Source: Natrialbaceae archaeon
Lineage (GTDB): Archaea > Halobacteriota > Halobacteria > Halobacteriales > Natrialbaceae
DNA length: 64,000 nt
Assembly: GCA_003559215.1 (NCBI GenBank)
Contig: PWMF01000034.1
Span: forward strand, 1-64,000
Reading direction: 5' to 3'
Part shown: piece after piece, positions 21,710 through 52,296 of the stretch
Numbering within the stretch: the first letter of the stretch is position 1
Layout of the letters: each line of letters starts with the position of its first letter
Notes under the pieces: model-generated
The model's database searches: none
What the model saw: the letters and a program-made list of their open reading frames with translations, nothing else
Told to the model about the DNA's origin: nothing
Translations under genes and position numbers: made by a program

Positions 21710-22945
21710 ATGGACGGGGACGGCGTCGGCGACTACGTGACGCGGTGTCGACAGCTCATCGAGGCCTCACCGCAGATGGACGAGGAAAATACGAAGGTAC
21801 GGCTCGTCCAGCCGTTTCTCGAACTTCTCGGGTGGGACTTCCTCTCGACGGAGGTCGAACTCGAGTACACGGTCCCGATGGCATCGGGCAGTACTCGAGT
21901 CGACTACGCGCTTCTCGTCGGCGGCTCACCCGCCGTATTCGTCGAGGCCAAACCCGTCCACTCGACGCTCTCCGAAAATGAGGTTCGGCAGCTGAAAAGC
22001 TACATGCGACAGGAACTCGATGTCGACTGGGGGATCCTCACGAACGGGAAGGAGTTCGAGGTGCTGACCAAAAACCGCGAGCGAAGCGGCGGCGAGGAAG
22101 TTTCGGTCATCCAGTTCGATCTGGACGATCTCGCCGAGAACCCTACGGTTCTGGAACTCCTCTCCAAAGAGTCGATTCGGTCGGGACAGGCGGACGAGAT
22201 CGCCGAACAGGTGGCTCGGACCAATCGGGCGATTCGACGGCTCGAAGCGAACGAGGACGCCGTCACCGAGGCCGTTGCTGACTCCGTCGAGGGTGAAATC
22301 GGTGACCTACCGATCGCCCTCGAGGAACAGGCACGCGAGTTCGTTCAGGGCCTCGTTTCAGTGCTGCGCGAACAGCGCCAGTTCGCCAGCGACGGGCCGC
22401 CGCTCGAACAAGAGACCTCGACTGAGGAGACGGCAGATACAGATAGTGCGAGCGAAACCGAACCGCCAGCAACAGCGTCGGTAGAAACGAACGGGGCCGG
22501 AGAACTCACACCGCTCGAGAATCGTGTCTCCGGGACCGTGTCGCGAGCGGAACTCGAGGGAGACGATGCGGCGACGGTTGCGGTGTTTCCGACTCGGGAG
22601 TCGGGGCTCCCCTTCCTGAAGGAAAACGAGGCCTGGGGATTCGTTCGGGTGGGTAGCGAGTTCGAGTACGTCGCGATGTACGTGACGGGAGCCGTTCGAG
22701 AAGTGAAGTATTCCGCGAGAGCCGATGAGATCCTCGAGCCGGCCGGGGCCGATCTCTTGCGTGACCCGTTGGATTACCGAGATGGGGCGAAGATTGCTGA
22801 GGGAAAGAAAGTGATCACGTTCGAACCGGGATCGCTGTCTGAGCTCGAGGAACCGATACCCTACGAGTCGAAGTACCCGCAGGGGCTTCGATACACGACA
22901 CTCGGCGCGATCAGAGACGCGGAGACGACGGACGACGTTTTCTAA
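21710..22945 (+). CDS. HsdR_N-like (type I restriction R N-terminal nuclease fold) standalone protein with an unassigned C-terminal domain
   Basis: EENTKVRLVQPFLELLGWDF...RVDYALLVGGSPAVFVEAKPVHSTLSE...QLKSYMRQELDVDWGILTNGKEF; no helicase domain or hsdM/S neighbours. Confidence 0.78.
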   Translation: MDGDGVGDYVTRCRQLIEASPQMDEENTKVRLVQPFLELLGWDFLSTEVELEYTVPMASGSTRVDYALLVGGSPAVFVEAKPVHSTLSENEVRQLKSYMRQELDVDWGILTNGKEFEVLTKNRERSGGEEVSVIQFDLDDLAENPTVLELLSKESIRSGQADEIAEQVARTNRAIRRLEANEDAVTEAVADSVEGEIGDLPIALEEQAREFVQGLVSVLREQRQFASDGPPLEQETSTEETADTDSASETEPPATASVETNGAGELTPLENRVSGTVSRAELEGDDAATVAVFPTRESGLPFLKENEAWGFVRVGSEFEYVAMYVTGAVREVKYSARADEILEPAGADLLRDPLDYRDGAKIAEGKKVITFEPGSLSELEEPIPYESKYPQGLRYTTLGAIRDAETTDDVF

Positions 22946-22972
22946 CCACCTTCTCGAGCGGGCGGTCCACTG

Positions 22973-23092
22973 TGCAGGACCGGATTCGAACTACGCCGAG
23001 ACGATCACTCTCGCTTCGCTCGAGTGCTGCGACTCGTCTGGTTCGAATCCTCGTCGCGATGCTTCTCCTCGCGGAACTGCTCGGAGAAGCAT
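22973..23092 (-). repeat. tRNA-Leu 3'-end-derived repeat unit (one copy)
   Basis: ggaccggattcgaac at 22977-22991 repeats tRNA 23098-23112 (15/15, period 121); inverted T-arm 22982-22991 / 23041-23050; core ctcgcttcgctcg 23010-23022; hairpin 23059-23068 / 23083-23092 (10/10). Confidence 0.85.
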
Positions 23093-23176
23093 GCGCGGGA
23101 CCGGATTCGAACCGGCGGACCCCTACGGGACAGCGTCCTAAGCGCTGCGCCGTTGGCCTAGCTTGGCTACCCGCGC
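23093..23176 (-). tRNA. tRNA-Leu (anticodon UAG)
   Basis: Reverse complement gcgcgggtagccaagctaggccaacggcgcagcgcttaggacgctgtcccgtaggggtccgccggttcgaatccggtcccgcgc; 7-bp acceptor stem, class II variable arm, anticodon TAG. Confidence 0.95.
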
Positions 23177-51789: not shown

Positions 51790-51929
51790 GTTCGGGCAGG
51801 ACACCCTCTATTTGCGATATGGGGCTTGGAATGCGTCCGTACTGTCTTGGTGGAGATACGGTCAACAAGCCTACCTGCGTACCGAATCGATCCGTTCAGG
51901 CCCACCCTCAAGAACTGGTGAGCAGACGC

Positions 51930-52080
51930 ACCGTGAGGGAGATTTGAACCACGCGAAAACGGTCATCCTCGCTTCGCTCGGATGCTGCGTCCTCTCTCGT
52001 TCAAACGTCCCTGTATCGTTTTGCAGCAACAAGTAGTTCGCGCCGCTACGCGTCGCTCACTGGGTTGTTGCTCCAAAAGC
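51930..52080 (-). repeat. tRNA-Ser 3'-end-derived repeat unit 1 (distal)
   Basis: ccgtgagggagatttgaacc 51931-51950 (19/20 to unit 2); core catcctcgcttcgctcggatg; hairpin ttttgcagcaacaa 52019-52032 / ttgttgctccaaaa 52065-52078 (13/14). Confidence 0.88.
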
Positions 52081-52212
52081 GCCGAGAGGGAGATTTGAAC
52101 CACGGTCGTTCCGCTCGCTGCGCTCGCTTCTCTCCCTGGTTCAAACTCCCCGATATCGTTTTCAGCAGCACGGACGGCTCGCTACGCTCGTCGTTTTGTG
52201 CTGCTGAAAAGC
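52081..52212 (-). repeat. tRNA-Ser 3'-end-derived repeat unit 2 (proximal)
   Basis: aaaagcgccgagagggagatttgaac 52075-52100 equals 52207-52232 (26/26, period 132); inverted T-arm 52088-52102 / 52137-52150; hairpin 52159-52171 / 52198-52210 (13/13). Confidence 0.9.
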
Positions 52213-52296
52213 GCCGAGAGGGAGATTTGAACTCCCGAGTCCGTGAGGACAGCAGATTTCGAATCTGCCGCCTTGGCCGGGCTAGGCTATCTCGGC
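52213..52296 (-). tRNA. tRNA-Ser (anticodon CGA)
   Basis: Reverse complement gccgagatagcctagcccggccaaggcggcagattcgaaatctgctgtcctcacggactcgggagttcaaatctccctctcggc; acceptor gccgaga/tctcggc, class II variable arm. Confidence 0.95.

Follow-up and report, generated by a model that had tools for sequence, protein, structure and literature searches.

Our analyses indicate that short hairpin units without genes, lying directly 3' of haloarchaeal tRNA genes, are very probably mobile elements that insert at tRNA 3' ends, although no strain-level or experimental data on their movement are available. The window, which is the whole 64,000-nucleotide stretch analyzed (positions 1 to 64,000 of contig PWMF01000034.1 from a Natrialbaceae archaeon), contains such a unit at tRNA-Leu(UAG), with the following features:

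23092..23176, minus strand: tRNA-Leu(UAG), the host gene (ARAGORN and genome-wide Rfam tRNA search)
23092-23111, minus strand: last 20 nt of tRNA-Leu(UAG), the tail TTCGAATCCGGTCCCGCGCA
22971..23091, minus strand: whole Leu(UAG) unit, 121 bp, made of hairpin B, inverted T-arm, hairpin C and tail copy (repeats; coordinates checked)
23060..23091, minus strand: hairpin B TGCTTCTCCGAGCAGTTCCGCGAGGAGAAGCA, beginning immediately 3' of the tRNA (inverted repeat and fold)
23041..23059, minus strand: inverted T-arm copy, comprising the T-loop and the 3' T-stem strand, then a stretch that matches poorly (inverted repeats and genome-wide analysis)
22991..23040, minus strand: core hairpin C, CAGACGAGTCGCAGC..GATCGTCTCGGCGTAG, family F1 (core searches and F1 stem covariation)
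22971..22990, minus strand: distal tRNA-Leu tail copy, 18/20 identical (direct repeat)

The direct repeat extends over 21 bp at 90% identity (22971-22991 and 23092-23112), and at a threshold of ≥18/20 the Leu tail occurs at two places in the whole window, the tRNA itself and the distal copy. The two arms of the inverted T-arm pair (22982-22991 and 23041-23050) match at 10/10 positions, with 11/11 against the T-arm of the tRNA itself, and the inverted repeat of hairpin B (23059-23068 and 23083-23092) is also perfect (10/10). The sequence-only reading had described a direct repeat, an inverted T-arm, a core and hairpin B, and all of these parts are present. Its 15-bp direct copy held but proved longer, its period of 121 was confirmed, and the position of the unit is here corrected to the 3' side of tRNA-Leu on the minus strand. 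A congener has a unit 94% similar at its own tRNA-Leu(UAG), and in relatives the gene is followed by zero to about five units with differing cores.

Several further observations concern this locus and the window around it. A 411-aa ORF (21710-22945, plus strand), which appears to resemble a type I restriction HsdR N-terminal (nuclease-fold) protein, stops just short of the Leu unit. In another genome (locus L017, G006:C151:80575-80759), the tRNA-Leu(UAG) sequence is present twice with N between the two copies, which is likely an assembly join rather than a true duplication. At the gathering threshold, Rfam reported in the window only one tRNA and the leuA-Halobacteria RNA motif (RF03001; 46992-47044, plus strand; 68.6 bits), with no match at the units.

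The architecture is general. The first base of each unit directly follows the tRNA, and a copy of that tRNA's last ~20 nt, from the T-loop to the discriminator, closes the unit, so that the tRNA stays whole; with the copy included, most units measure 90-160 bp. The limits of the duplicated segment are sharp: identity climbs from 0.29 to 0.84-0.98 where the T-loop begins and drops past nucleotide 73, the 3' terminus of the mature tRNA. The B and C hairpins fall into recurring families that unrelated tRNAs have in common and that extend across many genera, at tens of tRNAs; the arms, by contrast, vary with the host. The F1 stems covary (paired versus shuffled, 0.81 versus 0.46 for the inner stem and 0.79 versus 0.55 for the outer), and thus it is the hairpin that is conserved rather than its letters. 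The inverted arm matches its host over about 10-12 nt only, of which the T-loop and the 3' T-stem strand are reliable. Its acceptor part matches weakly (3.12 versus 2.69, p=3e-8), and an inverted arm complementary to the whole tail was therefore rejected.

The sharing of cores between different hosts is first seen in the window, where tRNA-Ser(CGA) is followed by two units:

52212..52296, minus strand: tRNA-Ser(CGA), the host gene (ARAGORN and Rfam)
52080..52211, minus strand: Ser unit 1, 132 bp, tRNA-proximal, core CAGGGAGAG..ACGACCGTGG
52080-52099, minus strand: tail copy of Ser unit 1, 20/20
51929..52079, minus strand: Ser unit 2, 151 bp, distal, F1-type core as in the Leu unit
51929-51948, minus strand: tail copy of Ser unit 2, 18/20

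The Leu core CTCGCTTCGCTCGAGTGCTGCG (23010-23031) has its tRNA-Ser counterpart, CTCGCTTCGCTCGGATGCTGCG, at 51968-51989, and exact core matches occur in the genome at these two places only, with none for the reversed control. Compared with each other, the Leu core and the distal Ser core score 23, against a maximum of 17 among 2000 dinucleotide shuffles, and a chance likeness is ruled out (0/2000 shuffles; reversed-pattern controls 0). The likeness between the Leu core and that of "Ser unit 1" claimed by the sequence-only reading thus holds for the core, but the unit compared is the tRNA-distal one of the two, and the possibility it had left, that the likeness might lie within chance in a shuffle test, is not borne out.

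The search was then made with cores alone, without any arm sequence, in 14 genomes. The patterns ACCGAGGTTCTG..CAGGTTCTCGG and AGTCGCAGC..GACCGTCT gave 22 and 28 matches, a total of 50, and the reversed controls gave none. All but one have a tRNA upstream in the same orientation (49/50), covering about 20 isoacceptors; nearly all hosts are called by ARAGORN at 52-302 nt, and for two (L317 and L332) the assignment rests on a tRNA-like tail. The sole exception, L322, is a stray match without arms. Some tRNAs whose T-loop is atypical (His, Pro-GGG, Asn) are among the hosts, and throughout this set the units fit the host with both arms. Saliphagus infecundisoli (at Ser-GGA) and a second genome of the family (at Gly-GCC) share an identical core, in units with different B hairpins and with arms matching their own host. 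These results support the proposal of a single element class with termini matching the host tRNA: the suggested check, that arms should co-vary with the host while the core stays constant, was passed, and the outcome that would have refuted it, a core equally common away from tRNAs, was not obtained (1/50).

The tracking of the host by the arms was also quantified. For the units from the core-only search, the inverted arm matches its own host at a mean of 9.49/13, compared with 8.32 under shuffled pairing (sd 0.16; maximum of 300, 8.80). Among 87 unselected units, 80 have a direct copy that fits the tail of its own host better than any other. For 49, against about 5 expected, the own host gives the inverted arm its best match or a tie for best. 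A coarse test of the inverted arm (≥8/11) showed no separation (own host 249, other isotypes 230, of 295), because the T-loop is common to the isotypes; the stricter tests did separate them.

The units are frequent and, as far as surveyed, concentrated in one order. The window's genome (G000) and a near-complete congener (G007), neither of which was chosen by the arm pattern, provide a fair sample. In the flanks of all Rfam-detected tRNA loci of these two genomes, a copy of the gene's own tail lies within 450 bp 3' for 22/46 tRNAs in G000 and 21/48 in G007. Over all haloarchaeal loci collected, a set partly picked by arm pattern, 194/267 tRNAs have their own tail in the 3' flank at ≥15/18. The controls gave 13/267 for the tail of another isotype and 19/267 for the 5' flank; the latter are mostly exact (18/18) and likely represent tandem tRNA genes, as expected. 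The strict arm pattern is present in 41/55 Halobacteriales genomes and in 0/243 other Halobacteriota, and a scan of one genome per GTDB species found at least 119 stretches, nearly all in Halobacteria and from many genera. When all 131 GTDB pattern matches were checked, 108 proved to lie ≤400 bp 3' of an ARAGORN-called tRNA. About 7 of the other 23 are haloarchaeal, at contig edges or beside tRNAs missed by ARAGORN (judged by eye), and the remainder are mostly non-haloarchaeal chance matches. Similarly, 30/30 loci from 12 genomes adjoin a tRNA, the few without an ARAGORN call being judged by eye.

In the thaumarchaeal Candidatus Nitrosocosmicus, the arm pattern is matched twice (L155 and L210) beside a tRNA-like 3' end; these matches could be intron-containing tRNA genes or a distant analogue. 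The tRNA-Ala (UGC) loci of G007 (L257-L259) are without a unit in the G000/G007 comparison; these are probably the tRNAs of rRNA operons, where an insert would sit inside the operon. Neither the patterns tried nor blastn with one core revealed a unit in viral contigs, plasmids or phages (three pattern matches in IMG/VR have no tRNA nearby), and carriage by such replicons is to that extent not supported.

The evidence for movement comes from orthologous sites and from the order of units within stacks. At tRNA-Asn, the G000 flank from +153 aligns to the G007 flank from +0 (473/543), a clean empty site where G000 has 153 bp, and Leu-CAA is likewise empty in G007. Lys-UUU is followed in both genomes by a common unit; in G000 a further 115-bp unit separates this one from the tRNA. 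At Glu-UUC the extra tRNA-proximal unit is in G007. Stacks contain up to 5 unlike units. In 67 arrays of ≥2 units, the mean match is 19.25/20 for the first copy and 16.58/20 for the last, with 47 arrays decaying outward and 4 inward (p=2e-8). Since the distal copies are worn and the proximal ones near-exact, units are apparently added beside the tRNA and age outward. Adjacent units are mostly unrelated (median identity 0.60, random 0.56), and simple tandem duplication was rejected, only 8/72 adjacent pairs being ≥85% identical. The presence/absence comparisons concern loci of different species, and empty sites alone are ambiguous: deletion between the direct repeats would also leave clean sites. 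Gain is favored over loss because of the polarity and the spread of the cores over isoacceptors. The mobility of the units, which is very likely, together with their stacking, polarity and spread across Halobacteriales, goes beyond what the sequence-only reading had proposed.

Some units depart from the common form. In a second kind, only the last 13 nt are copied (the 3' strand of the T-stem and the acceptor), the T-loop is missing and the hairpin is different, and here too the arms fit the host. Examples are those at tRNA-Arg(GCG) in G000 (L069) and G007 (L290), which carry an inverted copy of the acceptor part, and those at L138, L180, L130, L176 and L245. At seven unrelated loci (L066, L208, L225, L274, L032, L015 and L145), the tail copy is unlike its host only at the T-loop purine 57, with G for A or the reverse, and at L237 and L262 a recurrent TTCACAAT replaces TTCAAAT. 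The purine-57 copies and the TTCACAAT variants may mark the joining site.

As for the mechanism, we propose that the T-arm and tail are the target of a recombinase supplied in trans. The tail copy would pair with the inverted arm, so that the free unit would be a small folded DNA dumbbell capped by B and C, and this dumbbell would recombine with the tail, by analogy with folded integron cassettes or tRNA-targeting integrative elements. Through an exchange inside the near-universal T-loop, C hairpins could move from one isoacceptor to another. Archaeal tyrosine recombinases act preferentially at the 3' ends of tRNAs, and the T stem-loop can serve them as a site (PMC8371274); the tail copies that are unlike the host only at purine 57 suggest a joint in the T-loop. 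However, when the target is a different tRNA, exchange in the T-loop by an ordinary integrase would give it a foreign acceptor strand, and therefore does not on its own explain the spread between isoacceptors. Two further points weigh against this proposal: the second kind of unit, whose 13-nt copy lacks the T-loop, argues against a single simple scheme, and the fit of the inverted arm to the host, over 10-12 nt and weak in the acceptor part, argues against the recombinase scheme. The route by which the match of the inverted arm to its host arises has not been shown, and no recombinase or autonomous partner was found. The dumbbell and recombinase step, inferred by analogy with the enzyme unidentified, is therefore tentative; we regard it as the likeliest of the routes considered, yet as more apt to be wrong than right. 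The account as a whole, mobile non-coding mini-elements inserted exactly at tRNA 3' ends by way of a recombinase and a dumbbell, is one towards which we lean by a modest margin.

A bolder reading, for which the evidence falls short of persuading us, is that the units represent a hitherto unknown class of mobile element, lacking genes and fixed ends alike, in which the moving part is an interchangeable pair of hairpins. The arms would be written from the tRNA at which it lands, the tail directly and the T-arm inverted. New copies would always arise adjacent to the tRNA, so that at most tRNA species across Halobacteriales the stacks would be ordered in time as CRISPR arrays are. A recombinase that recognizes the T-arm, which all tRNAs share, would move a folded single-stranded dumbbell.

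Among the rival explanations, the one that survives best is that a casposase/Cas1-like or other transposase inserts the segment made of B, inverted arm and C, duplicating ~13-20 bp of target, and that the arm is later corrected by hairpin-templated repair. This is possible. Target duplication accounts for direct copies that follow any host, for tRNA-proximal insertion and for copies of 13 or 20 nt, and it explains the host tracking of the direct copy more simply than a recombinase does, but not the inverted arm, whose tracking requires an extra process. Casposases do insert at tRNA 3' ends and require upstream tRNA sequence (PMC6977970). However, the casposon duplication lies mostly outside the tRNA (the last 4 bp plus 10 downstream), in contrast to that of the units, which lies inside it, and no element-specific terminal inverted repeats were recognized in the units. 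Moreover, Cas1 (PF01867) was absent in 9/16 genomes searched (G000, G007, G004, G009, G012, G024, G027, G028 and G206), these nine all being carriers of the motif, and a Cas1 or casposase as the universal enzyme was rejected.

Another possibility would be that the units are non-mobile functional RNAs, such as 3' trailers acting as terminators or as processing or attenuation hairpins, with arms matched to the host by concerted evolution and an inverted arm whose pairing partner is either the T-arm of the tRNA or the copy downstream. The covarying stems agree with this, as does the folding prediction that the inverted arm pairs with the tRNA's own T-arm in several cases. The presence of units at about half of the tRNAs can be counted in its favor, and their absence from about half against it. 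On the other hand, whole units are cleanly present or absent between congeners, up to 5 unlike units are stacked, distal copies decay, and the acceptor part of the copy is nearly exact though it has no pairing partner. We consider the functional-RNA explanation unlikely, but an RNA role could exist as a by-product of mobile units.

It is very unlikely that the units are scars of ordinary integrated viruses or plasmids, with the displaced tail as the old att site and the rest as a deletion leftover: large haloarchaeal elements do leave partial tRNA copies (PMC7921747, PMC3119063), but the narrow unit size, the B/C families common to tens of tRNAs in many genera, the tandem units, the inverted arms matching the host and the lack of integrase remnants speak against it, random deletions would not yield one common architecture, and no intermediates with integrase genes between the tail and the C hairpin were seen in the loci examined. 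Retroelement priming, with the inverted arm as a primer-binding site, was rejected as it leaves C unexplained.

If the preferred reading, that of mobile hairpin units, is true, roughly half of haloarchaeal tRNA genes are bordered by an overlooked mobile element with ends adapting to the target. The adjacent "partial tRNAs" of haloarchaeal annotations would then be explained, and insertions at orthologous sites could be read in order of time. An unknown recombination activity would also be implied, one whose target, the tRNA T-arm, is near-universal. The processing of tRNA 3' ends, and the question of why integration came to favor tRNA genes, are touched by this as well.

In the open-access literature searched, we found no description of the element; only open-licence papers were covered, so a description elsewhere is not excluded. 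To our knowledge, no named element has ends that adapt to its target. The closest report concerns Haloferax gibbonsii LR2-5, in which 11 partial tRNAs ("tRNA remnants") were noted, several of them directly adjoining a full tRNA (PMC7921747). These were treated alongside large integrated elements, and the relevant text mentions neither hairpins nor an inverted arm; core families, stacking, empty sites and taxonomic breadth are likewise absent from it. The tRNA-targeting integrative elements resemble the units in inserting at tRNA 3' ends while restoring the tRNA, in leaving a partial tail copy, and in using the T stem-loop as att (PMC8371274); the insertion and the partial direct repeat are both present in the units. 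However, these elements are kb-sized with an integrase, whereas the units are gene-less hairpins with an inverted T-arm and cores common to isoacceptors, without integrase or cargo of their own and mostly, at 90-160 bp, too short for an integrase gene. Casposons likewise insert at the 3' ends of archaeal tRNAs, duplicate 14-15 bp of target and depend on upstream tRNA sequence (PMC6977970), but they are large and possess Cas1, polB and terminal inverted repeats. Their duplication reaches only the last tRNA bases, whereas that of the units runs from the T-loop to nucleotide 73.

The MITEs, PATEs and SMRs of Haloquadratum are likewise small, transposase-free mobile repeats, SMRs being about 110 bp and PATEs having palindromes (PMC3119063). 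None has tRNA-matching ends. Fixed, element-specific terminal inverted repeats related to a transposon are what define MITEs; the outer arms of the units vary with the host tRNA and are not specific to the element, though a relation to MITEs may still exist. PATEs and SMRs make no target duplication, and SMR-As insert into other mobile elements (PMC3119063). The combination that marks PATEs and IS605-type elements, near-terminal palindromes without target duplication, is thus not met by units carrying a 13-20 nt target copy. Integron cassettes have folded hairpin recombination sites (attC), are inserted with polarity by a fixed site and form stacked arrays. The conservation of the unit hairpins and the polarity are compatible with cassette recombination, with no integrase identified, but the units lack ORFs, IntI has not been shown, the target is a tRNA tail, and the ends follow the host. 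CRISPR arrays grow by leader-proximal insertion with repeat duplication, a feature that the units share in their polarity and empty sites. Cas1-Cas2 is not a common property, PF01867 being missing from many carriers, and the likeness is an analogy only, the inserts being conserved hairpins and not spacers. No tested family therefore has all its defining features met by the units, which are apparently a widespread and likely undescribed kind of mobile DNA.
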